Under the pieces are notes generated by a model. It had not been told where the DNA came from. It saw only the letters and a program-made list of their open reading frames with translations, and did no database searches. Positions 40,434 through 55,352 of a DNA stretch of 64,000 bases are shown piece after piece. The translations under genes and the position numbers were made by a program. Within the stretch, counting starts at the first letter, position 1; the number at the start of each line of letters is the position of its first letter. This stretch comes from an uncultured Roseateles sp. (GTDB lineage Bacteria > Pseudomonadota > Gammaproteobacteria > Burkholderiales > Burkholderiaceae_C). The DNA lies in assembly GCF_945956965.1 (NCBI RefSeq), contig NZ_CAMFJS010000005.1, positions 124,001 through 188,000 of the forward strand, written 5' to 3'.

Positions 40434-41237
40434 TCAGCGCAGGCGCAACTGCCACAGCGGCCCGCCATCGTCGATGCACACATGCTGGGCGTCACCAAAG
40501 CCGCTGGCCGCCAAGGCCGCCGCCGCGGCCAAGCCCGGCGCCCCCACCTGGCCCACGGCCGCCTGCGCCGCCTCGCTGAGGAAGGACAGATACAAGGTCT
40601 GGCGCGGCAGCAGTGCGGCCAGATGGCTGCGCCAGGCATCACCAAAGCGGGCCTGTGCCTGGCTGGGCTGGCCCTCATAAAAATGCGCCCCCAGCCCGCG
40701 CCAGAAGGGCGAGGTGGACGCAGTCTCAGCCCCATCGCTTGGCGTATCGCCGGGCGCGTCGCGCAGGCCCGCCAACTCGACGATCAAGACCTCGCCATAA
40801 GCACTTGGTGACTCGGCAATGCGCGCCAGTGCGGCTTGCACCAGTGCACTCAGATAAGCCACTTGCCGCTCAGCGGGCAAGCCCGGGGCAAAGGCCAGAT
40901 CGGCCAGTTCACTCTCCCCCGTGTGGTCATTGCCCAGCAGCAGAGTTCGCTGGGTGCAAAACAAGCCCAGCTCGGCCGCTGCATGCACCACACGGCCGAC
41001 GTGATAGCTGTAGCGCGGCAGGCGCATGCCCAGCTGCCGCACCAAACGCAAGCAGGCCAAGGGCTGGTCATTTTCAGCATCGGCCAGAACCAACCACTCC
41101 GCCTGATCCGCCTCCGGCGTTTCGGCCACGCTGAGGCCAAAGCCGGTCTGGTTGACCCAATGCTTCAGCTGTGCCTCATCGCTGGCTTGCTTGGCGCGTA
41201 GGCGCTGCTTGGGCATGCCCATCAAAGCTTCACTCAT
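40434..41237 (-). CDS. Shortened arginine N-succinyltransferase paralogue (AstA/AruF-like)
   Basis: 267 residues, clearly related to the upstream AstA through NDHTGESELADLAF (against LCHDLTGYTLLTSF), SPFWRGLGAHFYEG (against SPFWDAVGRRFFAM), LLPRQTLYLSFLSEAAQAAVGQV and IDDGGPLWQ (against IFDGGPTVE). It lacks the N-terminal acetyl-CoA-fold region equivalent to the first 60-70 residues and the C-terminal 60-70 residues of the full-length protein. In Pseudomonas the enzyme is an alpha/beta heteromer (AruF/AruG), so this may be the alpha-like partner or a degenerate subunit. Its ATG overlaps the upstream AstA stop by four bases (ATGA). Confidence 0.75.
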   Translation of the reverse strand: MSEALMGMPKQRLRAKQASDEAQLKHWVNQTGFGLSVAETPEADQAEWLVLADAENDQPLACLRLVRQLGMRLPRYSYHVGRVVHAAAELGLFCTQRTLLLGNDHTGESELADLAFAPGLPAERQVAYLSALVQAALARIAESPSAYGEVLIVELAGLRDAPGDTPSDGAETASTSPFWRGLGAHFYEGQPSQAQARFGDAWRSHLAALLPRQTLYLSFLSEAAQAAVGQVGAPGLAAAAALAASGFGDAQHVCIDDGGPLWQLRLR

Positions 41238-42319
41238 ACCTGCCCCACTTCCATCAGCGAAGGCTGCAGCGGGCTGACCAATAAGCGCGCCTCGGCCTGC
41301 GCCTTCAAGTCCAAACGCTCAAGCAGCTCATGGCCGGGCGCCAGCAACTGCGCGTTCTGCGGAATCTCTGCCAACACGGCCTTGAAGCTGGCACGCTCAC
41401 CCGTCGCCACCAGATGCCAGTCCGGCGGCGATTCCGTCGCCTGCCCCACGGCTTGCACGCTGATCTGGCGGGCATGCTTCACGGTGCGCAGCAAGCCCAG
41501 GCTGGCCTCCACAGTGGGGCCGCCGTCAAAGATGTCGATGTAGGTGTCGGCATCAAAGCCTTCGTCTTGCAGAATCGAAAAAGGCAGCTCCCCGACCGGG
41601 TGCAGCTGGCCGATCGCCCATTGCGCGGCCTCGGGCAAGAGCGGCACATAGATCGGCGACTGCGGCATCAGGTCAGCAATAAAGGCCTTGCTGCGCCCGC
41701 CGGTCACGGCTTCGGCCTGCGGATAGTCCATCGCAAAAAAGCGACGGCCCACCGCGTCCCAGAAAGGGCTCTGGCCGGCCGCGTCGGCCAGTCCCGGGCT
41801 TTCTGCCGCAATGCGGTCATTGAAACGCTCGGCAAACAGCAAGATGAAAAGCAGCCGCGCCCGCGACAGCAGCTGCGGCGCCAGGCCGCTGCTGTAGTCG
41901 GGTGCGATGTAGAAGGACGTCAGCAGTGTGTAGCCGGTCAGGTCGTGGCAGAGATGCAAGGTGTGCAGGCGCCGGCTCACGCCTAACTGCGCACTCGCAT
42001 GCACCACAAATTCATTGCGATAGCTGTAGAAGCGATCATGAAAACCCGCACTGGCGGCAATGCCGCTGGTACCCACCACCTCGCCGCAGGCGCGATCCTC
42101 CAGCACAAAGAGATAGGTTTCTTCGCCGCTGGCGTCATCCATGCTGGCGAAAGCGTGCAGCGAGCGTTCGATGCGCGCGCGCAGCTTGGCGCTGTCATTG
42201 GGCAGCGAGCTGATGCCGGGCTCACTGGCCGCCGCGATGCGCTCCAGCGCCGGCAAATCAGCCAAGGCCACCGGCCTGAGCATCAGGCTGCGCGGATCCG
42301 TGGCGGCATTAGTCATCAT
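41234..42319 (-). CDS. astA: Arginine N-succinyltransferase (AstA / AruG-like)
   Basis: 361 residues. First enzyme of the arginine succinyltransferase (AST) pathway, transferring succinyl from succinyl-CoA to the alpha-amino group of arginine. It closely matches AruG/AstA: SSLPNDSAKLRARIERS, YLFVLEDRACGEVVGTSGI, FYSYRNEFVVHAS, LCHDLTGYTLLTSFYI, SPFWDAVGRRFFAMDY, FIADLMPQSPIYVPLLP and YIDIFDGGPTVEA, all in order. Astute context: it follows the ArgR-like regulator and a predicted cyanophycin-dipeptide hydrolase. The start ATG overlaps the regulator's stop codon by four bases; an ATG one codon downstream is also possible. Confidence 0.93.
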   Translation of the reverse strand: MMTNAATDPRSLMLRPVALADLPALERIAAASEPGISSLPNDSAKLRARIERSLHAFASMDDASGEETYLFVLEDRACGEVVGTSGIAASAGFHDRFYSYRNEFVVHASAQLGVSRRLHTLHLCHDLTGYTLLTSFYIAPDYSSGLAPQLLSRARLLFILLFAERFNDRIAAESPGLADAAGQSPFWDAVGRRFFAMDYPQAEAVTGGRSKAFIADLMPQSPIYVPLLPEAAQWAIGQLHPVGELPFSILQDEGFDADTYIDIFDGGPTVEASLGLLRTVKHARQISVQAVGQATESPPDWHLVATGERASFKAVLAEIPQNAQLLAPGHELLERLDLKAQAEARLLVSPLQPSLMEVGQV

Positions 42320-43434
42320 GCGTTGTCTCCTGGGGCAGGTCGGCGCAGGGCCGCTGCACGCTGGCTGCGCTCGTCGCGCGGCGTCTTGTCAAAGTGGGTC
42401 TTGTAGGCATTGGAAAAATGCGGCCCGGAAGAGAAGCCGCAGCTCAGACCGATTTGCAGAATCGACTGGCTGCTCTGCTGCAAAAGGCGGCGCGCCCGGT
42501 TCAGGCGCAGCGCCAGATAGTAGCGGGAGGGCAAGGCGTCGAGGTGCTGCTTGAACAGCCGCTCCAGCTGGCGGCGCGACACCCCTACCAAACGTGCAAC
42601 CTCTTCGGTGGGCAGCGGCTCGCTCAGATTGGCCTCCATCAGGCTGAGCGCCTCGGCCAGCTTGGGGCTGCCGCCACGCTGCTCGGCCACCGGGCGGCGC
42701 TGGCGCTCACCCGGCCCGCGCGCGCGCTCCAGCCCTAAGCGCAGGGTCAGGTCTTGCGCCAGGCGTTCGCCATGCAGGCCACCCAGCCAGGCAATCATCA
42801 AGTCCAGGCTGGCGCCGCCGCCAGCGCAGCTCAGCCGGCTGGCTGTGGCATTGATTTCCCAGACATTGCCGGTCCAGATCACATCCGGAAAATCTTCCTG
42901 CAGCGCCTCCACCAAGTCGCCATTGACGGTGGCGCGCCCGCCACGCAACAGGCCCGCCTCGGCCAAGACCGCCGCGCCGCCATCCACCCCAGCCAAGGCC
43001 ACCCCAGCGCCGGCTTCATTGCGCAGCCATTGCTGCAAAGCGGCGCCGTCCCCTTGACCCCAATCGCCCCACTCCCCTTCGGCGCTGAGCACGAACACGG
43101 CCCACCAGGCCGAGGGCACAGGCCCGGCCGAGGGCGGCATTTGCACCAAGGCGGTCGTCGGCAGCATCAAGCCGCCGCAATCGACCTGCTGCCCATCCAG
43201 TGACAGCAGCGCCGTCGCATAGCGCGCCTCCTGTTGCAGCTCATTGACCTCACTCAGGGCGGACAAGATGCCCGCCAGCGCCAGGAGCGAAGCGCCCGGC
43301 AAGAGCAAGACGCCGCAAGCCCGGTGCGGGACTGATCCAACAGCTGGCCCCGAAGCAAGCCCAGTCCCAGGCGCAGACAGCCCCACCCCAGCCGCATGGC
43401 TGACGATCTCGGCGGGCTTGGCGTAGGCGGGCAT
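42316..43434 (-). CDS. AraC/GATase-type regulator, ArgR-like (GlxA family)
   Basis: 372 residues. The N-terminal half is a DJ-1/PfpI-type GATase-like domain (about residues 40-220) without the catalytic Cys, as in GlxA-type regulators. The C-terminal AraC DNA-binding domain has both helix-turn-helix units, with PTEEVARLVGVSRRQLERLFK and SILQIGLSCGFSSGPHFSNAYK. This matches the architecture of P. aeruginosa ArgR, which activates arginine catabolism. Its stop overlaps the astA start by four bases. The nearby intergenic regions carry ArgR-pattern half-sites, which supports control by this protein (inference). Confidence 0.9.
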   Translation of the reverse strand: MPAYAKPAEIVSHAAGVGLSAPGTGLASGPAVGSVPHRACGVLLLPGASLLALAGILSALSEVNELQQEARYATALLSLDGQQVDCGGLMLPTTALVQMPPSAGPVPSAWWAVFVLSAEGEWGDWGQGDGAALQQWLRNEAGAGVALAGVDGGAAVLAEAGLLRGGRATVNGDLVEALQEDFPDVIWTGNVWEINATASRLSCAGGGASLDLMIAWLGGLHGERLAQDLTLRLGLERARGPGERQRRPVAEQRGGSPKLAEALSLMEANLSEPLPTEEVARLVGVSRRQLERLFKQHLDALPSRYYLALRLNRARRLLQQSSQSILQIGLSCGFSSGPHFSNAYKTHFDKTPRDERSQRAAALRRPAPGDNA

Positions 43435-43480
43435 TGAAGTCACGGCCGCACTGTAAAGCAGGCCGCGGCGGCCTTGGTGC

Positions 43481-44869
43481 TCATTGCCAGTTGATCAGCG
43501 CAGGCAGCGCCAGCAAGACCATGGCCATCACCAGATACACCAACTGCAGCGGAATCATCCAACGCGCCCAGCGGGTCCAGGGGATGCCGGCCAGGGCCAG
43601 CACACCGACGGTGATGCCCGAGGTGGGGATCATGGGCGTGGTCAGCTCACCGAACTGAAAAGCCAGAATGGCGGTCTGCCGGCTCACGCCCACCAGATCG
43701 GCCAGCGGCGCCATGATGGGCATGGTCAGCGCGGCTTGGCCCGTGCCGGAGTGGATGAAAAAGTTGATCACCGACTGGATCAGGAACATCTTCTGCGCCG
43801 AGAAGATCGGGCTGCTCGATTCAATGAAGGGCACCAGGGCGTGCAGCAAGGTGTCGATGATGTGACCATCACGCATCAGCACCACGGTGGCCTTGGCCAA
43901 GGCGATGACCAGCGCGGTGCTGACAAGGTCCTTAGCGCCGGCCAGAAAGCTGGCGATGAATTGATCGGCATTGAGCCGACCGACCGCGCCCACCAGCAGC
44001 GCCATCACCAGAAATAGCGCGGCGATCTCTTCGATGTACCAGCCGAAGCGGACCACGCCGAAGATCATCACGCCCAAGGTCGCCGCGAACAGGGCCAGAA
44101 CCAGCTTGTGGCGCGGGCGCATGCCGGCAAAGGCCTCGAACTCCGCCAGATTCAGGTGTTTGCGCTTTTCCTGATCCATCTCGAAACAGGGGCTCAACTC
44201 GGGGCTGCGCTTGATGCGCGCGGCGTACCACATCAAAAAGGCGAAGGTCAGCGCAGTGGCAATCGCCCAGCAGATCAGCCGGTAGCCCAGGCCTGAGAAC
44301 ATCGGCACGCCGGCAATGCCTTGCGCCACGCCCACATTGAAGGGGTTCAGAAAGGCGGTGGCAAAGCCCACCTGGGAGCCGACGAAGGGAATGGAGACGC
44401 CAACAATGCTGTCGTACTTCAGCGCCAGCGCCAGCGGAATGAAGATCAGCACAAACGGTATCGCCTCCTCGGCCATGCCGAAGGTGGCGCCGCCCAGCGA
44501 AAACAGGGTCACAAAGACCGGGATGATGGCCACCCGAACCCAGGCCGAGCGCGTATGCGCCTTGGCGACCGACTTGATGGCGGAGTCAATCGCCTCCGTG
44601 CTTTGCAGCACCGAGAACGCGCCGCCCACAATCAAGACAAAGCCGATGATCAAGGAGGCTTCAACAAAGCCTTTGATCGGCGCCGTCATCAGCGCCGCGA
44701 AGCCCTGCGGTTTGCTAGCCACGGTGTGAAAGGAGTCCGCAATGATGACCTTCTTGCCGGCCACCATTTCGGTCTCGTACTGGCCGCCAGGCACCAGCCA
44801 AGTGGCCAAGGCGATCAGCGCCAAGAGGCCGAACAAGAGCACAAAGGTATTGGGGAATTTGAGTTTCAT
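43481..44869 (-). CDS. YfcC/DcuC-type inner-membrane carrier (predicted arginine or beta-Asp-Arg importer)
   Basis: 462 residues. It belongs to the C4-dicarboxylate anaerobic carrier-like/YfcC family (PF03606 type), with ten or more membrane helices, FPNTFVLLFGLLALIALATWLVPGG at the N-terminus (split here for length), GGATFGMAEEAIPFVLIFIPLA and FFIHSGTGQAALTMPIM near the end. YfcC-like proteins transport dicarboxylates or basic amino acids; the substrate here is inferred from context. The start at 44869 follows AAGAGA; an earlier in-frame start would overlap the CphZ-like gene. Gap of 43 bases to the CphZ-like gene upstream, 46 bases to the regulator downstream. Confidence 0.85.
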   Translation of the reverse strand: MKLKFPNTFVLLFGLLALIALATWLVPGGQYETEMVAGKKVIIADSFHTVASKPQGFAALMTAPIKGFVEASLIIGFVLIVGGAFSVLQSTEAIDSAIKSVAKAHTRSAWVRVAIIPVFVTLFSLGGATFGMAEEAIPFVLIFIPLALALKYDSIVGVSIPFVGSQVGFATAFLNPFNVGVAQGIAGVPMFSGLGYRLICWAIATALTFAFLMWYAARIKRSPELSPCFEMDQEKRKHLNLAEFEAFAGMRPRHKLVLALFAATLGVMIFGVVRFGWYIEEIAALFLVMALLVGAVGRLNADQFIASFLAGAKDLVSTALVIALAKATVVLMRDGHIIDTLLHALVPFIESSSPIFSAQKMFLIQSVINFFIHSGTGQAALTMPIMAPLADLVGVSRQTAILAFQFGELTTPMIPTSGITVGVLALAGIPWTRWARWMIPLQLVYLVMAMVLLALPALINWQ

Positions 44870-44912
44870 ATCTCTTAGCTGAACTTGAATGGGCGAGATG
44901 CGTGCCTCAGAC

Positions 44913-46049
44913 CTAGAGCGACAGCAAATTGCCGCTACGAAATGCCGTGCTGCCGGCCACCTTGCAGACCCGCATGCCGGCACTGGCATAACGCCGCGCC
45001 ACCCTGGCAAACAGCAGGCCGGCCACGCTGGCCCGCAGAGGCGTGCGCTGATCTGTCAGCGGATCAATGACCTCGGCCACCACCTCGCCAGCCGCCACCA
45101 CATCACCGGGCGCCTTGCAAAAAACCAGGATGCCGTTGTGCGGCGCGGTGATGGGCTCCACGCCTTCCAGCGGCGTGGCCTGACACAACGGTGCGGGCCA
45201 AGAGTTGGCTGGATCGGCGGCCTCGGAGCCTGGATCAATATGCCCGCGGTGCTGCAAGAACTGCAAGAGCGCTTGCGCGTCCTGCGCGGCCAGGCTGTGA
45301 TCCACCTCGACCTCCCCGCGCAACTCCACCGTGGCGGCGAAGCAGGCCAGGGGCACCGGCCGCGTGGGGCCGAAGTGTTCGGCCAGCTCCCACCAGATGC
45401 GCGAGATGGTTTCGTCGAAAGGATCGTCCCCCGACACCCGCGCCACCAGCAAGGCCTGCGCCTGCAGCGCCTGCGCCAGGGGCTTGGCCTGCTCGCTCAA
45501 GGGCTCACCGGCGTAGACATGCAAGACGGCCTGGTTATCGCAATGCAGGTCCAGCACGATGTCGGCATCCATGGCCAGGGTTTGCAGCAGCTGCTTCAGG
45601 CCATCCGTGGCGCTGGCGGGGGCGGCGGCGCCCAACAGCTGAAGACTGGCCTGACGAATCAGCCGGGTGTTTTCGGCGGGGTCCGCGCCCAGCAGCGGCT
45701 CCAGCAGCGGAATCAGGGCAGCGGTGAGGTGGCGGTACTGGCGATTGAAATTGATGCCGGTGCTCATATCGAAGCGCCCGCACAAGCTGCCCTGCATTTC
45801 CTGCGCCAAGCCGATCGGATTGGCCATGGGCACCAGCACGATTTCACCGGCGATGCGGTCGGCCTGCTCCAGCGCCAGCAATTGCTCGCGCAGATGCTGG
45901 GCCACCAGCATGGCCGGCACTTCGTCGGCATGCAGGCTGGCTTGGATATAGGTCTTGCGGCCGCTTTCACCGCGCCCGAAGTGCAGGCTGCGCAGTTGAC
46001 GCGTGGTTCCCGCGCTGGCGGGGGGCAATGCATGCAGCAGTGTTCGCAT
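44913..46049 (-). CDS. Zinc hydrolase of the AstE/AspA family, CphZ/AotO-like
   Basis: 378 residues. The succinylglutamate desuccinylase/aspartoacylase fold has its zinc ligands in ASLHADEVPAM (His40, Glu43) and VLDLHCDN (His169). INFNRQY binds the substrate carboxylate and the general-base glutamate lies in ATVELRGEVEVDH (Glu242). The C-terminal beta domain (residues 300 onward) carries APHNGILVFCKAPGDVV. In P. aeruginosa the homologue AotO/CphZ cleaves beta-Asp-Arg dipeptides released from cyanophycin. The gene sits 43 bases upstream of a YfcC-type carrier and 147 bases downstream of a cyanophycinase. I chose the ATG at 46049; a GTG 135 bases upstream is in frame but lacks family similarity. 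Confidence 0.82.
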   Translation of the reverse strand: MRTLLHALPPASAGTTRQLRSLHFGRGESGRKTYIQASLHADEVPAMLVAQHLREQLLALEQADRIAGEIVLVPMANPIGLAQEMQGSLCGRFDMSTGINFNRQYRHLTAALIPLLEPLLGADPAENTRLIRQASLQLLGAAAPASATDGLKQLLQTLAMDADIVLDLHCDNQAVLHVYAGEPLSEQAKPLAQALQAQALLVARVSGDDPFDETISRIWWELAEHFGPTRPVPLACFAATVELRGEVEVDHSLAAQDAQALLQFLQHRGHIDPGSEAADPANSWPAPLCQATPLEGVEPITAPHNGILVFCKAPGDVVAAGEVVAEVIDPLTDQRTPLRASVAGLLFARVARRYASAGMRVCKVAGSTAFRSGNLLSL

Positions 46050-46196
46050 GATGGGGAGTTGTCCAGTCTTGAGTAACGCTTCTGGCGGGCAGGCCAGCTG
46101 AAAGGCAGGCAGGCGAGCAGGTGCAGGCACGCCCAGATGCCAGGGGCGATCAGTTGCGAAATGAAAGTCCGGCGGGCAAGTCACCCGCGCTCAGTG

Positions 46197-47531
46197 CTAA
46201 CGTGGCAGGCCAGCGGCAGCCAGGGGTTTGTAGAACGGCCGGCTGATGATCACCGGCTGCACATCCAGGCGCAGGCGCAGCACCGTGTAGTCCTCGCCGC
46301 CCATCGCGGCACTGAACCAGCCCCGGCTGCCCTCGCCCTTGTAGAGCCGGAACTCAAAACCCAGATCGGGTTGCGGCTCGGTGCTGGCACTGCGCCCATC
46401 GAAAGCCACGCCCAGCACTTCAGGGAATGGGCTGTCCAGCAACTGCCCCATGGCGTTGACGATGGTGCTGTCGCCCAGGATGTCGAGGTAGAAAGGCTGC
46501 TTGGTGAAGAAGGGCTTGAAGTCCTTGGCGGCAGGGTCAATGACATGGCCCGCCAGCTTCTTGGCCGAAGGCGTGGTCTGACCGGTTTTGAGGTTATGGC
46601 GATCGCCTCGGTCCAGAAAGCTGAGCTGGGCATTGCGGATATTGAAGGCGGCGAGCGTCTTGTCCTGGCTGGCCTGGCTCAGATCAACCAGCAGCACACC
46701 CTTGGCACCCAGCACCTCCACATCGTCCCCGCGCAGCAGCGCGGCGCTGTTCTCCTCCACGCCCAGGCCGAGCTGATAGCCCTCGGCTTGCATCAAGGGC
46801 AGCAAGCGCCCGATGCGGCCCCGCTTGAGGAAATGCTGATCGATGAAGAGCTTGGGGCCGACAAAGCCCAGGCCGCGATCCACCTCCTTCCCGCGCCGCA
46901 TCTGACCTTTGAGCACATGCAGCGCATCCTGCGCATCGCGAAACATCGTCGTGCTCATGATGGCAGCACCCGCGCTGGTGCCGGCAATCAACCCACCGCG
47001 CTGATACACCGACCAGATCGCCTGCAACATGGGCGTCACTTGGCCACCGGGCTGAAAGGTGTCGACGATCAACTCCTGCGCGCCGCCCGAGAAGAACACA
47101 GCCTGGGCCGCGCCCACTTTGGCGATCAGGGCTGGGTCATTGAGACGCGCTTGCAGATCGCTGCCCGCCAGACGGGGCGCCACCGGGATGTGTTCGGCCC
47201 GCGCGCCCTGAGCGTTCAAGGCCTCAATGATCTGGCCGGCGCTGCGTTCGGGGTTGGCGGCAGCGGTCGCAAAGACCGCGATGCGCGCGCCCGGGCCACC
47301 AGCCTCGTCCACGATGCGCTTCCAAACCTCGGCGTTATCAAACTTGAGCGCGCCGCCAATGATGACCAGCGCGCCGGTGGCCGCGGGCCGTGCAGGAGTA
47401 TCGGCAGCATTCGCCGGCGCGGCCCATGCAGGCAGCACCCACAAGCTGCTGGCGAGCAAGGCAAGCGCCAGCGCAGCGCGCCGCCCTGGGCGGGCGGCTC
47501 GGCGATGGATTGAGCGGACAAGGTCTGACAT
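46197..47531 (-). CDS. Secreted cyanophycinase (copy 1)
   Basis: 444 residues. N-terminal signal peptide (hydrophobic about residues 18-36, ending AWAAPA) and an S51-type serine-peptidase domain from about residue 52. The nucleophile is Ser186 in IAGTSAGAAIMS. Other conserved segments are IIGGALKFDN, VFFSGGAQE and RGLGFVGPKLFIDQHFLKRGR. Cyanophycinase cleaves the Asp-backbone/Arg-sidechain polymer to beta-Asp-Arg. The signal peptide marks it as CphE-like, acting outside the cytoplasm on external cyanophycin. It is first gene of the leftward six-gene run and divergent from a TonB receptor. Confidence 0.92.
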   Translation of the reverse strand: MSDLVRSIHRRAARPGRRAALALALLASSLWVLPAWAAPANAADTPARPAATGALVIIGGALKFDNAEVWKRIVDEAGGPGARIAVFATAAANPERSAGQIIEALNAQGARAEHIPVAPRLAGSDLQARLNDPALIAKVGAAQAVFFSGGAQELIVDTFQPGGQVTPMLQAIWSVYQRGGLIAGTSAGAAIMSTTMFRDAQDALHVLKGQMRRGKEVDRGLGFVGPKLFIDQHFLKRGRIGRLLPLMQAEGYQLGLGVEENSAALLRGDDVEVLGAKGVLLVDLSQASQDKTLAAFNIRNAQLSFLDRGDRHNLKTGQTTPSAKKLAGHVIDPAAKDFKPFFTKQPFYLDILGDSTIVNAMGQLLDSPFPEVLGVAFDGRSASTEPQPDLGFEFRLYKGEGSRGWFSAAMGGEDYTVLRLRLDVQPVIISRPFYKPLAAAGLPR

Positions 47532-47642
47532 GGCAATGGCGTCTTGATGCAAGGGAATGGCGCCAGTCTGTCAGCGACGCTGCGCGCTCGCTAGCGGGTA
47601 TGGCCTCAAAACGGTGCGAAATGGCTCCGCATCGCAAATGCA

Positions 47643-47678
47643 TGTCGCATCGCTGCAAGCCCTGTTGCGCCTGTTCAT
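47643..47678 (+). promoter_or_regulatory. ArgR-pattern element on the + strand
   Basis: TGTCGC at 47643-47648, eight bases, then AA at 47657-47658 matches the half-site pattern TGTCGC-N8-AA exactly. A second, weaker copy (TGTTGC at 47663-47668, N8, AT) starts 20 bases later. Confidence 0.5.
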
Positions 47679-47685
47679 CGCAGGT

Positions 47686-47722
47686 TTACATGCAAGCGAC
47701 GCGCAATTGCACGCAAGCGACC
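47686..47722 (-). promoter_or_regulatory. Tandem ArgR-pattern half-sites on the - strand
   Basis: Read on the minus strand, GGTCGC-N8-AA-N5 is followed at exactly 21 bases by CGTCGC-N8-AA, ending at 47686. This matches the published P. aeruginosa ArgR operator pattern of two direct repeats TGTCGC-N8-AA-N5 except for the first base of each copy. On the plus strand it appears as a repeated GCAAGCGAC at 47692-47700 and 47713-47721. Confidence 0.6.
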
Positions 47723-47733
47723 GAGCCACCAAA

Positions 47734-47769
47734 ACCCCATAGGCAAGTCATCCGGGCCGCTTCTAGAGT
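47734..47769 (+). promoter_or_regulatory. Probable promoter of TonB receptor 1
   Basis: A -10-like TAGAGT at 47764-47769 lies 30 bases after the start of ACCCCATAGGC (47734-47744). The same two blocks occur at the same spacing upstream of TonB receptor 2 (52495-52530). No -35 consensus is visible, consistent with activator dependence. Confidence 0.5.
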
Positions 47770-47914
47770 GACTCCAAGGCCAAAGCGCCAAGCCCTGATT
47801 TCGATCGACGCCCACGCGCCAAGCCTTTGCTCCATAGATGTCCTCGGGCAGCCCCTGCTGCATTTCGTTCTTCTTGCCACTCTTCCCACCTCTTCAGCCA
47901 AAGAAGGCCCCACC

Positions 47915-50677
47915 ATGACCCCAACACGCACGCCGCGCCACACCCGTTCGGCCCGCCTATTCAAGATGAAAAGTCTGGCCCAAGCGGCCACGCTCTTGCT
48001 GATCGGTGCGCAGGCGCTGCAAGCGCAGGCCCAGACGCAAGAAGCCAAGCTTGAACGCGTCGAAGTGACTGGCTCCAGCATCAAGCGCCTGGAGGGCGAG
48101 AGCGCCCTGCCGGTGCAAACCATCAAGCGCAGCGATATCGACAAGACCGGCGCCACCACGGCCGCCGAGATCATGAAGAGCATCAGCGCCAACGCTGCGG
48201 CACTGACCGATGGTGCATCGATCACCGACAACACCGGCGGCCAGCGCGGCATGAACGGTGCCAATCTGCGCGGCCTGGGCGTGTCCAGCACCTTGGTGCT
48301 GCTCAATGGCCGGCGCATGGCCAACTTCGCTTCGCCTGGCGACAACGCCGGTGTTGACTTGAACAATATCCCGGCCGGCGCCATCGAACGGGTCGAGGTC
48401 TTGAAGGACGGCGCCTCGGCCATCTACGGCACCGATGCCATCGGTGGCGTGATCAACTTCATCACCCGCAAGGACTATCGCGGCGCCGACGTCAATGTCT
48501 ACGCCGCCCGCACCCAAGAAGGCGGCGCAGAAAAGACCGCCGCATCGGTGGGCGGCGGCTTCGGCGATCTGGAGAATGACCGCTTCAACGTCTTTGGTGT
48601 GCTGGACATTCAAAAGCTCGGCAGCTTGCGCTCCAGCGAACGCGACTTTCTGAAAGACCGCCCGCTGGCCACCACCCTGCCCTTTTATATGTCGAGCCGC
48701 ACCTTCCCGGGTAATATCCGCCTGGCTTCGAAGGCGGCGGCGCGCAAGGTGCAACTCGATGCCCTGGCTGCCGCCGGCATGACATTCAACGGCGCGCCCT
48801 ATAACCAGCGCACCATCAATCTGTATGCGCCGGCCTGCAATCCGCCGGCCACCGTGTACGCCAAAGACAATCTCTCCCAGGCCTGCAGCTTTGACTATAT
48901 GCAGGACACCGAGCTCTATCCCGAGTCGGACAAGAAGTCCTTCCTTGGCCGCGGCGTGTTCCAGCTCAACAAGGACACCCAGCTCTTCGCTGAAGTGGTG
49001 AAGAGCCAGACCCAGACCCGCTACGTCGCCAGCCCCAACCCGATCGAAATCACCGCCGTGCCCACGGCGGCCATCAACCCCTTCCTGCCCAAGCCTCTGC
49101 CTTTTGGCGGCACGGTCGATGTGCGCCAGCGCGTCACCGAAGGCGGCAACCGGACCAACCAGGTCAGCAGTGATGCCGACCGCCTGGTTGCCGGTGTCAG
49201 CGGCACACTGGGCGGCTGGGACTATGACGTAGCCCTCAACCACGCCATCAATCGCACGGCGGATTCGCTGCGCGACGGCTACTTCCTCTACGACAAGTTC
49301 GTGGACGGCGTGCGCACCGGCAAGATCAATCCATTCGGCGCCTCGCCACAAGCCGGCAAAGACTTGCTCAAGAGCATTGCCGTGCAAGACGATGCCCGCA
49401 AGTCCAAGGGCAGCACCACCACCCTAGACGCCAAATTCAGCGGTGTGTTGGCCCAGCTGGCCGGTGGTGATCTGGGTGCGGCCTTCGGCGCCGAGTTCCG
49501 CCGTGAGGAAACCGAGTTCACGCCCTCAGCCCTGCTGCTCACCAACAATATCCAGGGCGACCGCAGCTCTCGCGGCGACGCCCCGCCCGCCAGCAGCAAT
49601 AGCCGCAAAGTGGCCGCCGTGTTCGGCGAGTTGAATGCCCCGCTGAGCAAGGAGCTGGAGCTGCAAGTGGCCGCCCGCTACGACAAATACAGCGGCGTCG
49701 GCGACACCTTCAACCCCAAGCTGGGCGTGCGCTGGCAACCCAGCAAGGCGCTGATGCTGCGCGGCTCTGCGGGCACAGGCTTCCGGGCGCCCTCGATCGA
49801 CGAGCTGACCCGCCCGACCTCGTTTGGCTCCAGCTCCGCCTTCCTGACCGACCCCGGCTGCGTGGCCCAAGGCTTCGCGGTGGCGGACTGCACGGATCAG
49901 TGGCGTGTTGAGCGCCGCAGCAATGCCAATCTGAAGCCAGAGAAGTCCAAGCAGTTCTCCTTCGGCCTGGCGTTTGAGCCACTCAACGAACTCAGCGCCA
50001 GCGTCGATTACTGGAACATCCGCAAGACCGATGTGATCAGCGATTTGTCCGAGCAAGTCATCCTCGGCAACTTGGCCCGCTACGAGAAAGACTATGTCAA
50101 ACGCGACCAGTACGGCGAGTTGATCGACACCATTTTGCTGAAGAAGGAGAACCAGGGTGAGCTGCGCACCTCGGGCATCGATGTGGACCTGCTCTACCGC
50201 CTCAAGACGAATGAGCTGGGCCGCTTCACCGCCAGCCTGACCGGCACCTATGTCTTGAACTACGAGCGCCAGTTCGGTGACGGCGAGCCCTTCCTGAACA
50301 ACGCCGGCCAGTTCCTCAGCGACCAGGTGATTCAGAAGTGGCGCCACCGCCTGGCGCTGGACTGGGACATTGGCAACTGGGGCCTGACCGTGGGCAATAC
50401 CTATTTGTCGGGCTATCGCGACCACAACACGGCCTTCAACCCCTACACCGACCAATTGCTGGAGGCGCGCAGCGTCAGCAGCTACTCGCTGTGGGATCTG
50501 TCGGGCTCGTGGCGCGTGAACAAGGACATGAAGCTGCGCGCTGGCGTGCAGAATTTGTTCAACACCCAGCCTCCCTTCTCCAACCAGGGCTACTACTTCC
50601 TGGCCACTTACGACCCGACCTACACCGACCCGCGCGGCCGGACCTTCTACGCCAGCTTGAACTACTCGTTCCGCTGA
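47915..50677 (+). CDS. TonB-dependent outer-membrane receptor (copy 1)
   Basis: 920 residues. Signal peptide ends near ALQAQAQ, then the N-terminal plug domain has LERVEVTGSSIKRLEGE (TonB-box region), NLRGLGVSSTLVLLNGRRM and ERVEVLKDGASAIYGTDAIGG. The 22-strand barrel ends with FYASLNYSFR, an aromatic C-terminus. Such receptors import large substrates using ExbB/ExbD/TonB energy; location suggests cyanophycin fragments or beta-Asp-Arg (inference). The ATG at 47915 has an AAGAAGG ribosome-binding site; the frame extends further upstream but not as plausible coding sequence. Paralogue of the receptor at 52563. Confidence 0.93.
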   Translation: MTPTRTPRHTRSARLFKMKSLAQAATLLLIGAQALQAQAQTQEAKLERVEVTGSSIKRLEGESALPVQTIKRSDIDKTGATTAAEIMKSISANAAALTDGASITDNTGGQRGMNGANLRGLGVSSTLVLLNGRRMANFASPGDNAGVDLNNIPAGAIERVEVLKDGASAIYGTDAIGGVINFITRKDYRGADVNVYAARTQEGGAEKTAASVGGGFGDLENDRFNVFGVLDIQKLGSLRSSERDFLKDRPLATTLPFYMSSRTFPGNIRLASKAAARKVQLDALAAAGMTFNGAPYNQRTINLYAPACNPPATVYAKDNLSQACSFDYMQDTELYPESDKKSFLGRGVFQLNKDTQLFAEVVKSQTQTRYVASPNPIEITAVPTAAINPFLPKPLPFGGTVDVRQRVTEGGNRTNQVSSDADRLVAGVSGTLGGWDYDVALNHAINRTADSLRDGYFLYDKFVDGVRTGKINPFGASPQAGKDLLKSIAVQDDARKSKGSTTTLDAKFSGVLAQLAGGDLGAAFGAEFRREETEFTPSALLLTNNIQGDRSSRGDAPPASSNSRKVAAVFGELNAPLSKELELQVAARYDKYSGVGDTFNPKLGVRWQPSKALMLRGSAGTGFRAPSIDELTRPTSFGSSSAFLTDPGCVAQGFAVADCTDQWRVERRSNANLKPEKSKQFSFGLAFEPLNELSASVDYWNIRKTDVISDLSEQVILGNLARYEKDYVKRDQYGELIDTILLKKENQGELRTSGIDVDLLYRLKTNELGRFTASLTGTYVLNYERQFGDGEPFLNNAGQFLSDQVIQKWRHRLALDWDIGNWGLTVGNTYLSGYRDHNTAFNPYTDQLLEARSVSSYSLWDLSGSWRVNKDMKLRAGVQNLFNTQPPFSNQGYYFLATYDPTYTDPRGRTFYASLNYSFR

Positions 50678-50697
50678 TTCAGAGGGCTTCAGTAAAA

Positions 50698-50737
50698 CGG
50701 GGAGTTGGCGCCACGGCGCCAACTCCCCGAACTTTTT
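50698..50737. terminator. Strong terminator after TonB receptor 1
   Basis: A fifteen-base perfect stem (CGGGGAGTTGGCGCC with its complement) is followed by five T residues. It lies between the receptor and the convergent cyanophycinase 2. Confidence 0.9.
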
Positions 50738-50749
50738 GTCAAAACGAAA

Positions 50750-52288
50750 TCAGGAACCGTCGCCGCGCTCCACCGCGCTGGCCGCCGGCACTACGGTGCG
50801 CGCGCCAGAACCCTGCCAGGGCGCGTAAATCGGCTGCGGCATGCGCACCGGCGTCACATCCAGGTAAAGGTTGACGACGGTGTACTCCTCACCGCCCATC
50901 TCATCCGTGCTCCAGCCATAGCTGCCGCGGCCTTTGTAGAGGCGGAACAAAAAGCCCAGATCGGCCACTTGATCGCCCGGCTTGGGCAAGGCGTCGAAGC
51001 TCAGTCCGCGCACCTCGTTGCGATTGCTGTCGATCAAATAGCTCATCGCATTGGAGATGGTGGAGTCGCCCAGCATATCGATGTGGAACAGCTCCTCGGT
51101 GTAGTAGGGCTTGAAGTCGGCGGCCAGCGGGTCAAGCTTATCGCCGCGCAATTTGAGCGCGGAGGGCATGGTGACTCGGGTCTTCAGATTGAATTTATCG
51201 CCATGGTCAAGATAGCTCAGGCGCGCATTGGTGACGTTGAAGGCGCCCAGGGTCGGGTCGGTCTTGACCTCGCTAAGGTCCACCAGCAAAGCCCCCTTGC
51301 CACCAATCACCTCGACCTCGTCGCCGTGCACCACAGCGGCCGTGTTCTCATCCACGCCCAGGCCCAGCTTATAGCCCTTGGCCATCATCAGCGGGATCAT
51401 GCGACCGAAGCGGCCGCGCTTCAAAAAATGCTGGTCCACAAACAGATCCGGCCCGACAAAGCCCAGGCCGCGGTCAATCTGTTTCCCCTCGACCCATTTG
51501 CCTTTCATGATGTTGATGACGCTGGGTGCATCCCGGAACATCACCGCGCTCATGATGGCCGCCCCGGCCGAGGTGCCCGCCACCACGCCGCCACGGCGGT
51601 AGACATCCCAGATCGCCTCCAGCATGGGCGTGGCATTACCGCCGGGGGCCAGCACGTCAACGATGCGCTCTTGCGCGCCACCGGTGAAGAACACACCGCG
51701 GGAGTTCTTGATCTTGGCAATCAACGCCGGGTCACGCACCACCTTGTTGAGATCCACCCAGCTGAATTTGGGCGCCACCGGCAAAGCCTCGGCCACCGCG
51801 CCACGCCGCTGCAGCAACTCAATCGCCTGCTTGGCGCTGGCCTCGGGGTCTTCCGAAGCAGTGCTGAGCACCACAAAGCGAGCACCCTTGCCGCCGGCCA
51901 GACTGACGATGCGGCCCCAGACCTCTTCGTTGTCGGACTTCAAGGCGCCGCCGATGGCCACCGCATAGCCCTTGATCAACAAATCCCCTGCCGCGGCGGA
52001 CGAGCCCGGTGGCAATGCCCCCAAGGGCGCGGGTGTTGTGGCACTGCTCGACGGCGTGGCCGTCGCCGGCGCGGGCTTGGTGGCGGAGGCGCCCGAACCG
52101 CGAATCACCGTCCACACACCGGTCTTGGGATTGGTGGGCGTCTGCACCGGGCCGCTGGCCGCATTGGGGCCTGTGCCGAGTACCGAGTCGGCCGCCTGCA
52201 GCGCACCGGCGCCGCACAAGGACAGCACAACAAGGCCAGCACCCAGCCAGCGTGAGCCGCTTGATGCGAATGGAGGAACGATCTTCAT
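50750..52288 (-). CDS. Secreted cyanophycinase (copy 2), with an N-terminal linker
   Basis: 512 residues. Signal peptide (about residues 14-33, ending ALQAAD), then a Ser/Ala/Thr/Pro-rich linker (about residues 36-100) containing TPTNPKTGVWTVIRGSG, and the cyanophycinase domain from about residue 105. The nucleophile is Ser240 in VAGTSAGAAIMS; FFTGGAQE and RGLGFVGPDLFVDQHFLKRGR are conserved. Compared with copy 1 it has the added linker and a longer C-terminus. Divergent from TonB receptor 2. The chosen ATG at 52288 (MKIVPP) is preferred to a TTG 21 bases upstream. Confidence 0.92.
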   Translation of the reverse strand: MKIVPPFASSGSRWLGAGLVVLSLCGAGALQAADSVLGTGPNAASGPVQTPTNPKTGVWTVIRGSGASATKPAPATATPSSSATTPAPLGALPPGSSAAAGDLLIKGYAVAIGGALKSDNEEVWGRIVSLAGGKGARFVVLSTASEDPEASAKQAIELLQRRGAVAEALPVAPKFSWVDLNKVVRDPALIAKIKNSRGVFFTGGAQERIVDVLAPGGNATPMLEAIWDVYRRGGVVAGTSAGAAIMSAVMFRDAPSVINIMKGKWVEGKQIDRGLGFVGPDLFVDQHFLKRGRFGRMIPLMMAKGYKLGLGVDENTAAVVHGDEVEVIGGKGALLVDLSEVKTDPTLGAFNVTNARLSYLDHGDKFNLKTRVTMPSALKLRGDKLDPLAADFKPYYTEELFHIDMLGDSTISNAMSYLIDSNRNEVRGLSFDALPKPGDQVADLGFLFRLYKGRGSYGWSTDEMGGEEYTVVNLYLDVTPVRMPQPIYAPWQGSGARTVVPAASAVERGDGS

Positions 52289-52462
52289 GGGACGCAGACG
52301 CTGTGGCAACTTGCTTTGAAAAAAAACGGTGGAGGCTGACGCCGCAGCACGCTGAGCCTTTGGGGCAGCAGATGCTCATCACCAGGGACGATGCATGGTA
52401 GCCCAGGCATGCGCGGCCCGCGCTGGTCTGCTCCCCCTAGTTCCAAGTCAAAAACCCAGCCG

Positions 52463-52486
52463 CAAAGTTGTGTGCACGCGACTTTG
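52463..52486. promoter_or_regulatory. 24-bp near-palindrome containing an ArgR-pattern half-site
   Basis: CAAAGT and ACTTTG arms surround a central GTGCAC, 20 of 24 positions symmetrical. On the minus strand it contains AGTCGC-N8-AA. The site lies 42 bases from the -10-like TAGACT, the same as the corresponding site upstream of receptor 1. Confidence 0.55.
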
Positions 52487-52494
52487 TGCGGTTG

Positions 52495-52530
52495 ACCCCA
52501 CTGGCCCCAGCCCGGCGGGCTTCCTAGACT
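52495..52530 (+). promoter_or_regulatory. Probable promoter of TonB receptor 2
   Basis: ACCCCACTGGC (52495-52505) and a -10-like TAGACT (52525-52530) are arranged exactly as in the promoter of TonB receptor 1. No consensus -35 is visible. Confidence 0.5.
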
Positions 52531-52562
52531 GGACCAAACACCTGTAGCCACCAAGGGAAGCC

Positions 52563-55352
52563 ATGAAGATCAAACGCCGCCAAGAACTGCCGATCAGCGC
52601 GTGCAACAAGCGCCCGCTTTTGCGCAGCAGCCTGCAAGCCGCCCTGCTCGCCCTCATCAGCCTGCCGGCCGCCGCACAGGAAAGCGCCGACGCCAAGAAG
52701 CTGGAGCGGGTGGAGATCACCGGCTCGGCCATCAAGCGCATCGACTCCGAGGGCTCGCTGCCGGTGCAAGTCATCACCCGGGCCGATATGGTCAAGGCCG
52801 GCATCACCACCGCCGCCGAGTTGGTGGCCACGCTCAGCGCCGGCAGCAATGCGCTGACCGACGGCGTTAGCATGGCCTTCGGCGGCTACAAGGATCAGCA
52901 AGGCCTCAACTCGGCCAATCTGCGCGGCCTGGGCACCTCCTCCACCCTGGTGCTGCTGAATGGCCGGCGCATGGCCAATTTCGCCTCGCCGGGCGACGAC
53001 TCCGGCGTGGACCTGAACAGCATCCCGGCCGCCGCCATCCAGCGCGTGGAAGTGCTGCTGGACGGCGCCTCGGCCATCTACGGGGCCGACGCAATTGGTG
53101 GCGTCGTCAACTTCATCACCCGCAAAGACTACCAAGGCTTTGAAGCCGAGGTCTATGCCGGCACCAGCCAGGAAGGCGGCGCGGGCAAACGCACCATCTC
53201 ACTGTCCGGTGGCTTTGGCGACATTGCGCGCGACCGTTTCAATGTCTTTGGCGTGCTGGATGTGCAGCGCACCGACGCGCTGTCCACCTCGCAGCGCAAA
53301 TTCATCGATGATTTGAAAATCCCAGAGCGGCTGCCGCATTTGCTGTCCTCGGCCGGCTTCCCCGGCAATATTCGCCTTAGCGGCGACCAGCGCGATTACC
53401 TGGAAAGCCAGAACTTCCAGATCAACGGCACGCCCATCAGCAGCCGCACCATAAACCTGAGCGCGCCCAAATGCCAGCCGCCGCACACGCTCTACCTGCC
53501 GGGTGGCGTTGGCGGCACGGATGGCTGCACCTTCGACTACATGCGCGATGTGGAGCTCTACCCCAAAACCGACAAGGCCGATTTCCTTGGCCGCGCCGTG
53601 CTGCAACTGGGCGACAAGCACCAGCTCTTTGCCGAGGTTTCGCTGACCCAGGCCAAGAGCTTCTACACCGGCACATCCAACCGCATTGACGGCGAATTGG
53701 ATGTGTCGATGATTCCCGCCCTGGCCGCCACCGGCCTGGGTGACGCCCTGCCAGACGACCGCAGCATCACCGTACGAACCCGTTTGCTCGATGCCGGCCG
53801 CCGCACCAGCGAGGTCACCAGCACCGGCAAGCGCTTTGTGCTGGGCCTGACCGGCAATGTGGCCGGCTGGGACTACGACATGGCCTACAACCACAGCGAG
53901 AACAAGGTGGCGGAGCGCGATGTGGCCGGCTACCTGCTCTACGACAAGACCATGGCCGCTTTTGCCAACGGCACCGTCAACCCCTTCGGCGCCCAATCCG
54001 CCGCAGGCCTCAAGTTCCTGCAAGACAATCAGCTGAATCAGGAAGTTCGCAATGCCAGGGGCACCATGGATGCCTTCGACATCAAGGGCAGCGGCGTTGT
54101 GGGCCAAACGGCCGGTGGCGACATTGCGATGGCCGTGGGCGCGGAGTTCCGCCGCGAGGCGAGCAAATCGGCCGCGTCCGATCTGCTGATCTCCGACAAC
54201 ATCGTCGGTGACCCTTCGCCGGGCGACTCGCAGTTCACCGACCACTCACGCAAGGTCTGGGCGGTGTATGCCGAAGTGATCGTGCCCCTGAGCAAGCAGC
54301 TTGAATTGCAAGCCGCTGTGCGCCACGACCACTACGATGTGGTGGGCGGCACCACCAACCCAAAGCTGAGCCTGCGCTACACGCCCATGAAGGAAGTGGT
54401 GCTGCGCGCCTCCGCCGGCACGGGCTTCCGCGCCCCCTCATTGAACGATATGTACCGCCCCACCAAGGTGAGCGAAACCTCGGTGTTGCCGGATCCGGTC
54501 TGCATGGCCGAAAACGGCAACGACCTGGGCTACTGTGCCGACAACTGGAAGACCCGCACCTACGCCAACCCGAACTTGAAGCCCGAGAAGTCCAAACAGT
54601 TCTCCTTCGGCGTGGTGGTCGAGCCGCATCCGCTGATCAGCCTGGGCCTGGACTACTGGAATATCGAGAAAAGCGATTTGATCAGCACCATCGGTGACGA
54701 CGTCATCCTGGCCAATCTCGACAAATACGGCAGCCTGGTGCACCGCTTCAATATGGACGAAGGCCTCAAAGGTTGCGACTACGACGCCGGTGATTCAAGC
54801 ATTTGCTTCATCGAGTTGCGCAAGGAAAACCGCGGCAAGCAGCGCGCCTCGGGCCTGGACTTCACGGTGGATGTGCGCTCACACGCCACGAGCCTGGGCA
54901 AATTCGGCGCCAAGCTGGTGGGTTCTTTGACGCTCAAGTCTGAACGGCAAACCGGCTTTGGCGATGGCTTCATCAGCAATCTGGGCCAGTTCGTCACCGA
55001 CGGCGTGGTGCAGCGCTGGAAGCACCGCCTGAGTGTGGATTGGGCCAGCGGCCCCTGGAGCCTGGCGCTGAGCAATAGCTACTCCAGCGGCTACACCGAC
55101 CAGAACTCCGCCATCGACACCAATTCGGGCACCGTGGTGGGGGCCAACAAGGTCAAGGCCTATTCCTTGTGGGATCTGTCGGCTGCCTGGGATGTCAGCA
55201 AGGCCATCACCTTGCGCGCCGGCGTGAAAAACCTCCTGGACACGCCGCCGCCCTATTCCAACCAGGCCTACTTCTTCATCTCCGGCTACGACCCCAGCTA
55301 CACCGACCCTCGCGGGCGCTTTGGCTACCTGAGCGCGAAGTACAGCTTCTGA
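52563..55352 (+). CDS. TonB-dependent outer-membrane receptor (copy 2)
   Basis: 929 residues, paralogous to the receptor at 47915 along its length. Signal peptide ends near LPAAAQES; the plug has LERVEITGSAIKRIDSE, NLRGLGTSSTLVLLNGRRM and QRVEVLLDGASAIYGADAIGG; the barrel ends YLSAKYSF. The start has an AAGGGAAG ribosome-binding site. Divergent from cyanophycinase 2, reproducing the layout of copy 1, so the two modules probably arose by duplication. It is followed by a strong terminator. Confidence 0.93.
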   Translation: MKIKRRQELPISACNKRPLLRSSLQAALLALISLPAAAQESADAKKLERVEITGSAIKRIDSEGSLPVQVITRADMVKAGITTAAELVATLSAGSNALTDGVSMAFGGYKDQQGLNSANLRGLGTSSTLVLLNGRRMANFASPGDDSGVDLNSIPAAAIQRVEVLLDGASAIYGADAIGGVVNFITRKDYQGFEAEVYAGTSQEGGAGKRTISLSGGFGDIARDRFNVFGVLDVQRTDALSTSQRKFIDDLKIPERLPHLLSSAGFPGNIRLSGDQRDYLESQNFQINGTPISSRTINLSAPKCQPPHTLYLPGGVGGTDGCTFDYMRDVELYPKTDKADFLGRAVLQLGDKHQLFAEVSLTQAKSFYTGTSNRIDGELDVSMIPALAATGLGDALPDDRSITVRTRLLDAGRRTSEVTSTGKRFVLGLTGNVAGWDYDMAYNHSENKVAERDVAGYLLYDKTMAAFANGTVNPFGAQSAAGLKFLQDNQLNQEVRNARGTMDAFDIKGSGVVGQTAGGDIAMAVGAEFRREASKSAASDLLISDNIVGDPSPGDSQFTDHSRKVWAVYAEVIVPLSKQLELQAAVRHDHYDVVGGTTNPKLSLRYTPMKEVVLRASAGTGFRAPSLNDMYRPTKVSETSVLPDPVCMAENGNDLGYCADNWKTRTYANPNLKPEKSKQFSFGVVVEPHPLISLGLDYWNIEKSDLISTIGDDVILANLDKYGSLVHRFNMDEGLKGCDYDAGDSSICFIELRKENRGKQRASGLDFTVDVRSHATSLGKFGAKLVGSLTLKSERQTGFGDGFISNLGQFVTDGVVQRWKHRLSVDWASGPWSLALSNSYSSGYTDQNSAIDTNSGTVVGANKVKAYSLWDLSAAWDVSKAITLRAGVKNLLDTPPPYSNQAYFFISGYDPSYTDPRGRFGYLSAKYSF

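Follow-up and report, generated by a model that had tools for sequence, protein, structure and literature searches.

The proposal that cyanophycin is a substrate of TonB transporters dates from 2012 and was drawn from a single gene neighbourhood, that of Citromicrobium sp. JLT1363 (PMC3400609). A "cyanophycin utilization locus" composed of a cyanophycinase gene, iadA and a transporter gene has been named in the spirochaete L21-Spi-D4 (Ben Hania et al., in PMC10206079), and M14/AstE-type enzymes are now called cyanophycin dipeptide hydrolases (PMC10206079). The name CphE is given to extracellular cyanophycinases carrying a leader peptide (PMC3235067). Here, we describe a locus at positions 40434-55352 of a 64-kb window (the whole stretch of DNA analysed) out of the 4.96-Mb genome of an uncultured Roseateles sp. 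It encodes two cyanophycinases, two TonB-dependent receptors, a CphZ-like hydrolase, an inner-membrane carrier, an ArgR-type regulator and two AstA-like proteins. Taken as a whole, it is best explained as serving specifically to scavenge cyanophycin from outside the cell, a prediction to which we give a probability of about three in four.

The locus shares with Citromicrobium sp. JLT1363 the pairing of a TonB receptor with a cyanophycinase; that account concerns one strain's neighbourhood, and its passage on cyanophycin mentions no CphZ, ArgR or AstA context (PMC3400609). With the L21-Spi-D4 locus it has in common that genes for scavenging are clustered, namely those of cyanophycinase, of an enzyme cleaving the dipeptide and of a transporter, but the spirochaete has iadA instead of CphZ, and the summary of its locus does not mention a TonB receptor, an ArgR regulator or AstA (PMC10206079). 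By description, rather than by sequence comparison, its cyanophycinases resemble CphE in having a leader peptide, but here two tandem copies are found, each divergent from a TonB receptor (PMC3235067). Another likeness is to the aot/ArgR genes of Pseudomonas: relatives of the locus carry an operon for a substrate-binding protein (SBP), two permeases, CphZ and an ATPase, behind which come the genes of an AraC-type regulator and of AstA-type proteins. We take the Pseudomonas order aotJQMOP-argR to be that of these ABC-type (ATP-binding cassette) relatives, with aotO corresponding to CphZ. Compared with Pseudomonas aot, the present locus has receptors and secreted-type cyanophycinases in addition and YfcC in place of the ABC genes, and neither AstB nor AstD is present.

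A literature search returned no paper joining "cyanophycin" and "YfcC", while "cyanophycin" and "ArgR" co-occur in PMC4258820, PMC2242806, PMC9723716 and PMC9196836. The set of receptor, CphZ, ArgR and AstA was not found by this search, although the key CphZ paper (Sharon 2023, PNAS) may describe part of it. The first-pass annotation of this DNA knew of no earlier description of the assembly with TonB receptors and a YfcC-type carrier. As far as the search reaches, this holds for the complete set; it does not hold for the receptor-cyanophycinase pairing, which was published in 2012 (PMC3400609), and the term "cyanophycin utilization locus" had been coined before. The parts are known singly, and the complete set and its ARG-box switch sites look new.

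Layout and recurrence of the locus

On the minus strand lie, in this order, cyanophycinase 1, the CphZ/AotO-like hydrolase, the DcuC/YfcC carrier, the AraC-type regulator, AstA1 and AstA2. TonB receptor 1 is divergent from cyanophycinase 1 and is followed by a second divergent cyanophycinase-receptor pair. Every gene that the first-pass annotation had placed together was recovered by Pfam and NCBIfam searches, the start points of receptor 1, the carrier, the hydrolase and both cyanophycinases being inferred. The arrangement goes beyond chance, because the same gene order recurs in relatives.

The nearest named relatives at the locus belong to Roseateles, Paucibacter, Pelomonas and Ideonella, and a scan of named genomes yielded 38 loci (loci and genomes carry our own L and G labels). 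Receptor and cyanophycinase matches occur together in 34 of the 38 (not in L046, L050, L055 and L061, some of them contig ends), CphZ in 6 and the regulator in 7; the receptor-cyanophycinase pair is thus constant and the block from CphZ to AstA variable. A family sample of 150 genomes, own genome included, was also searched for the same cluster, and the cluster does recur: AstA genes are present in 14 of the 150 genomes, as 16 pairs. A CphZ relative is found in 44/150 genomes, comprising all 14 AstA genomes and 30 of the 136 others (Fisher 6e-9, kinship uncorrected). The surroundings of the other 15 AstA pairs were examined along with the window. Near these 16 pairs, a TonB receptor and the regulator are found in every case, a cyanophycinase in 15 (not L086) and CphZ in 15 (not L088).

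Predicted digestion, uptake and cleavage of the polymer

CphE1 (46197-47531, minus strand) and CphE2 (50750-52288, minus strand) score 128.8 and 144.1 bits against TIGR02069, both over the cyanophycinase equivalog cut-off of 126.6. The best sequence matches in the PDB of CphE1, the copy searched, are solved cyanophycinases (7UQV/3EN0), and solved cyanophycinases are also the best Foldseek matches of its whole AlphaFold2 (AF2) model (pLDDT 73). Across 17 aligned cyanophycinase sequences, the columns of the Ser motif, of DQHF and of the Glu in the GLGVEEN region are invariant; the GTSAGA motif reads GSSAGA in two of them. These columns presumably hold the catalytic triad of S51 cyanophycinases. 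On a simple hydrophobicity scale, both N-termini show a charged start and then a hydrophobic stretch. Both enzymes are thus likely exported from the cytoplasm, probably to the periplasm, N-terminal segments alone being unable to separate the periplasm from the outside. The earlier description as two secreted cyanophycinases was right about the family, and its word "secreted" goes no further than these segments. Their family predicts that CphE1 and CphE2 cut the polymer to beta-Asp-Arg. Another contig encodes a third cyanophycinase-like S51 protein (G000:C10:143389-143592; L002 922-2196(-)), which is 424 aa long, differs in look and has a hydrophobic N-terminus.

TBDR1 (47915-50677, plus strand, start inferred from its hydrophobic N-terminus) and TBDR2 (52563-55352, plus strand) both match PF00593 and PF07715, in agreement with the two TonB receptors first annotated. 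The two copies are identical at 54% of residues for CphE1/CphE2 and 49% for TBDR1/TBDR2. The five longest direct repeats fitting the pair pattern have 68-78% identity and lie 4595-4654 bases apart, a spacing from which it follows that the receptor-cyanophycinase pair is a tandem duplication, now diverged. Receptor and cyanophycinase distances are correlated (Mantel r 0.82, the largest of 999 permutations giving 0.30), a figure that still contains shared ancestry. The receptors would bring cyanophycin through the outer membrane, as chains or as oligomers; if so, cyanophycin gains a receptor-based uptake route comparable to those of polysaccharides. A SusC/SusD-type polysaccharide-utilisation locus differs in having a SusD-like surface lipoprotein beside the receptor, for which no Pfam match was found among the open reading frames (ORFs) of the locus or the flanking ORFs scanned.

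The hydrolase (44913-~46049, ORF to 46184, minus strand) has the AstE/AspA fold, with PDB matches to 8EIN (1.2e-70) and 8EIP (8e-70). Its HxxE and H residues are kept, as is the Glu that distinguishes chain 8ein from 8eip. We take 8EIN to be CphZ; the entry itself is titled succinylglutamate desuccinylase. These matches and the kept metal and catalytic residues uphold its annotation as a CphZ/AotO-like enzyme. The protein has no hydrophobic N-terminus on the simple scale and would act in the cytoplasm, splitting beta-Asp-Arg into Asp and Arg; this specificity is predicted from the family and the kept catalytic residues. A second CphZ is encoded in the same genome, inside a complete Aot-type operon (L089).

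The carrier (43481-~44869, ORF to 45010, minus strand) matches PF03606 with 317 bits and has nine hydrophobic segments on the simple scale. Its best match is YfcC (NF008611), but the 375 bits fall short of the cut-off of 500, and the label "YfcC-type" stands for the DcuC/YfcC family and not as an equivalog call. Among the 16 AstA pairs, the importer nearby is YfcC in six cases, Aot-like permeases plus ATPase in seven and an ATPase alone in one, with none found in the remaining two. The full ABC-type order, SBP-permease-permease-CphZ-ATPase-regulator-AstA1-AstA2, is seen in L082-L085 and L057, and L086 is ABC-type with a different gene order; in YfcC-type loci, CphZ keeps its position in the operon and YfcC adjoins the regulator. 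Because YfcC and the Aot-type ABC importer replace each other within the same operon, import of the dipeptide is the role we would assign to both, to the former here and to the latter in relatives. Digestion of cyanophycin, import and cleavage of beta-Asp-Arg, as first sketched, gain comparative support from protein families, catalytic residues and synteny.

The regulator and the ARG boxes

The regulator (42316-43443, minus strand) consists of an N-terminal DJ-1/PfpI-like domain and an AraC helix-turn-helix domain (PF12833). Its AF2 model (pLDDT 74) has Foldseek matches to 3oio, 3gra and DJ-1-type folds. The protein is ArgR/GbdR-like, and the epithet "ArgR-like" is to be read in the Pseudomonas sense of an AraC-type protein, not in the sense of E. 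coli ArgR. Presumably arginine-sensing, it would act on the promoter shared by the divergent receptor and cyanophycinase genes, with tandem ARG boxes as its sites. In Pseudomonas, the ARG box reads TGTCGCN6GNAA and comes in tandem with 5 bp between copies, a spacing that is variable in P. alloputida (PMC10963909). The sites found here resemble the Pseudomonas ArgR sites both in this consensus and in the tandem 5-bp spacing (PMC10963909).

In the window, the box TGTCGCATCGCTGCAA (47643-47658, plus strand) agrees with the consensus at 9/9 positions, and the upstream half of its tandem (47622-47637, plus strand), separated from it by a 5-bp spacer, at 7/9. A reverse tandem is formed by GGTCGCTTGCGTGCAA (47707-47722, minus strand; 8/9) and a second half 5 bp from it (47686-47701, minus strand; 8/9), which was recognised by eye and lies in a conserved block. 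The putative -10 element of TBDR1, CTAGAGT (47763-47769, plus strand), follows at a distance of 56 bp, counted from where the reverse box starts.

The shared promoters of 47 units, that is, divergent receptor-cyanophycinase pairs found by the ORF caller, were scanned for such sites. TGTCGCN8AA is present in 19 of the 47 (50 random draws gave 1.8 on average and 5 at most), and these 19 units are exactly the 19 with a regulator gene in the operon. A tandem score of at least 15/18 at 5-bp spacing is reached by all 19 regulator units, by none of the 28 units without a regulator and by 7 of 470 random windows (some of which may overlap true sites), and other spacings from 0 to 12 give at most 5/19. 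A 9/9 site occurs in 17/19 regulator units, 0/28 others and 8/470 random windows. The association between regulator and box has a Fisher value of 1e-13, which overstates independence on account of kinship between loci. Among receptor-2-type units alone, five have both regulator and box (four of them distinct) and 28 have neither at full stringency.

These counts are to be read with some details of the sample. The sequences of L038 and L088 are identical, which reduces the 19 regulator units to 18 distinct ones, and five of the 28 units without an adjacent regulator (L027, L029, L031, L037 and the window) are second units of regulator-holding loci. Less than 5 kb was seen downstream for L026, L040 and L047, and the sequences of L028 and L059 stop shortly behind; a regulator further on is possible in these five. 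The zero among 28 applies to the full TGTCGCN8AA site. Units or part-units L028, L033, L042, L046, L050, L055, L059, L061, L075, L079, L082 and L086 lie outside the 47. All of these except L055, which has no upstream sequence, were scanned apart. The regulator loci L079, L082 and L086 have tandem boxes and L075 a single full site, and boxes are present in L028 and L059. In L033, L042, L046, L050 and L061, where no regulator was seen, the scan found neither a full site nor a tandem pair.

Boxes appear in both orientations in an alignment of nine promoters. The element CTAGA(G/C)T is found in 14/19 regulator units, and receptor-side boxes precede it by 53-56 or 75-77 bp, one 21-bp step apart. 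A search of the window alone allowing one mismatch gave 8 boxes against 9.3 expected, no better than chance; the case for ARG boxes consequently rests on conservation and spacing. The tie between boxes and regulator gene lends comparative support to arginine-type regulation as initially suggested. Binding of the regulator to these boxes is the natural prediction, together with induction of the receptor through them by arginine or beta-Asp-Arg.

The second unit of the window carries a degenerate ARG-like box, AGTCGCGTGCACACAA (52468-52483, minus strand; 7/9), upstream of CTAGACT and in the same place in 10 other unit-2 promoters. Boxes of this form, AGTCGYN6RCAA, lie 53-55 bp from a CTAGACT-like element in 11/28 unit-2 promoters (Paucibacter-type, window included) and are absent among the best two sites of each of the other 17. 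They suggest that the regulator has only a weak hold on the second pair, or has lost it. Near cphA, a 19.5-kb stretch (L090) contains one full box (4493) and one tandem pair (14554), both within ORFs, which we take as chance occurrences.

Possible fate of the arginine and other explanations

The AstA genes at the locus, correctly announced in the first-pass annotation, encode two PF04958 proteins, the sole matches to this family in the genome. AstA1 (41234-42319, minus strand; PF04958 364 bits), an arginine/ornithine succinyltransferase alpha-like protein, scores 383 bits against TIGR03245, below the cut-off of 459, and 366 bits against TIGR03243, over the cut-off of 284. It matches 1YLE, the structure of an arginine N-succinyltransferase alpha chain, at 2.7e-93. 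AstA2 (40434-41237, minus strand; 267 aa; PF04958 124 bits) is a short, diverged subunit of the family with a weak match to 1YLE (1.7e-17). The dN/dS ratio is 0.16-0.22 for AstA1 in four comparisons and 0.18-0.32 for AstA2 in three of four (106-123 codons; no match in the fourth locus), the AstA2 values being rough since dS is near or above 1. Both genes look constrained, and for AstA2 the dN/dS and the recurrence in relatives speak against gene decay.

AstB was found neither in the own genome nor in any other of the 150 family genomes, and AstD reached its equivalog cut-off in 0 of the 14 AstA carriers, own genome included (own best 263 against 579 bits); the E. coli and Caulobacter controls were over the cut-off for both. 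The two AstA-like proteins cannot serve the textbook arginine succinyltransferase (AST) pathway, and the proposal that the locus feeds this pathway is largely refuted by this search, which covered AstB and AstD. What is exposed is a conserved AstA pair that presumably has a role outside the textbook pathway. An arginase and an agmatinase, each over its cut-off, are encoded in the own genome. In L074, and nowhere else among the 16 AstA loci, an arginase gene was matched, directly behind AstA2, its product 88% identical to the own-genome arginase. Arginase would be a likelier entry point for the arginine than the textbook AST pathway, the AstA-like pair then doing something else; that AstA1 and AstA2 acylate ornithine made by arginase is speculative. 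In another genome (L093, G001:C8:37500-57000), an arginase gene lies between two Aot-type CphZ operons and is 83% identical to its own-genome counterpart, an arrangement that hints at arginase as the arginine route in this family.

These elements can be combined into an ArgR-type regulon for "selfish" uptake, in which the receptors would import chains into the periplasm before digestion, arginine would be broken down by arginase first and ornithine acylated by orphan AstA1/AstA2, with no AstB or AstD. As a complete scheme, we consider this rather unlikely.

Less likely still is that the locus mainly recycles cyanophycin of the own cell or its kin, whether released by lysis or kept inside. The search for cphA that had been advised was positive: cphA lies on another contig of the own genome, next to a shorter cphA-like gene (G000:C13:26969-31755; L006, L007), and cphA with a cphA-like neighbour is found in 11/14 AstA carriers, the own genome among them. 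The cell thus probably makes cyanophycin itself, as most sampled bearers of the scavenging locus likely do, and many bearers in this family also seem to store it. Use of the own polymer is at odds with the N-terminal hydrophobic segments of both cyanophycinases, encoded beside outer-membrane receptors, with the position of cphA on another contig and with the lack of a cphA match, at the chosen threshold, in three of the 14 carriers.

Equally improbable, in our estimate, is a substrate other than cyanophycin, for instance isoaspartyl peptides of another kind or peptides rich in arginine. Both the S51 enzymes and the TonB receptors form broad families, and both cyanophycinase scores stand little above the family cut-off; nevertheless, two enzymes over a cyanophycinase equivalog cut-off and a CphZ-like enzyme point to one polymer. 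Finally, a working AST pathway begun by the local AstA genes can practically be set aside: AstA1 is a good arginine/ornithine succinyltransferase alpha-like protein, but AstB is absent from all 150 genomes, and no AstD over its cut-off was found in the 14 AstA carriers.

Several observations weigh against the scavenging of external cyanophycin. Substrate, uptake, binding and growth steps are all predictions from sequence, the TonB receptors are recognised by their general family alone, and the own cphA and cphA-like genes make use of the own polymer possible. The best NCBIfam match of the regulator is GbdR, at 229 bits and under the cut-off of 480. The strict form of the box, TGTCGCWWNNNNGCAA, occurs twice in the own genome, at 47643-47658 and within the rpoA coding sequence. 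Over the 14 AstA-carrier genomes it gives 28 sites against 15 for a reversed control pattern, and 11 of the 28 are letter for letter identical to the rpoA site (the own-genome rpoA site being the one examined). It marks the locus in just 9 of these 14 genomes, missing it in G011, G021, G062, G140 and G143, where the boxes deviate from the strict form. The second unit of the window has just a degenerate single box, at the proximal distance, and by the test used no ARG box was found in the own Aot-CphZ operon (L089) or in the own arginase stretch (L122). A link of arginase to the locus was looked for in the own genome and not found, the gene lying elsewhere among unrelated neighbours. Should the scavenging explanation prove right in spite of these points, it would connect freshwater-type heterotrophs with the turnover of a nitrogen polymer that stems from cyanobacteria and from bacteria storing cyanophycin.

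The surroundings of the locus offer some further features. In six relatives, a conserved gene lies just 3' of the second TonB receptor (L027 5519-6661, L029 5511-6911, L031 3557-4735, L037 3536-4714, L076 3301-4467 and L088 2964-4094), and none was seen at this place in the window. In L038 (5611-6741), the same place is occupied by a beta-lactamase-fold serine hydrolase (PF00144). The gene in this position might encode an enzyme cleaving a released product. Among the 38 loci from named genomes, a DUF480 gene is a neighbour in 28, and DsbA/MFS genes are neighbours on the other side in 19, many of the stretches ending early.

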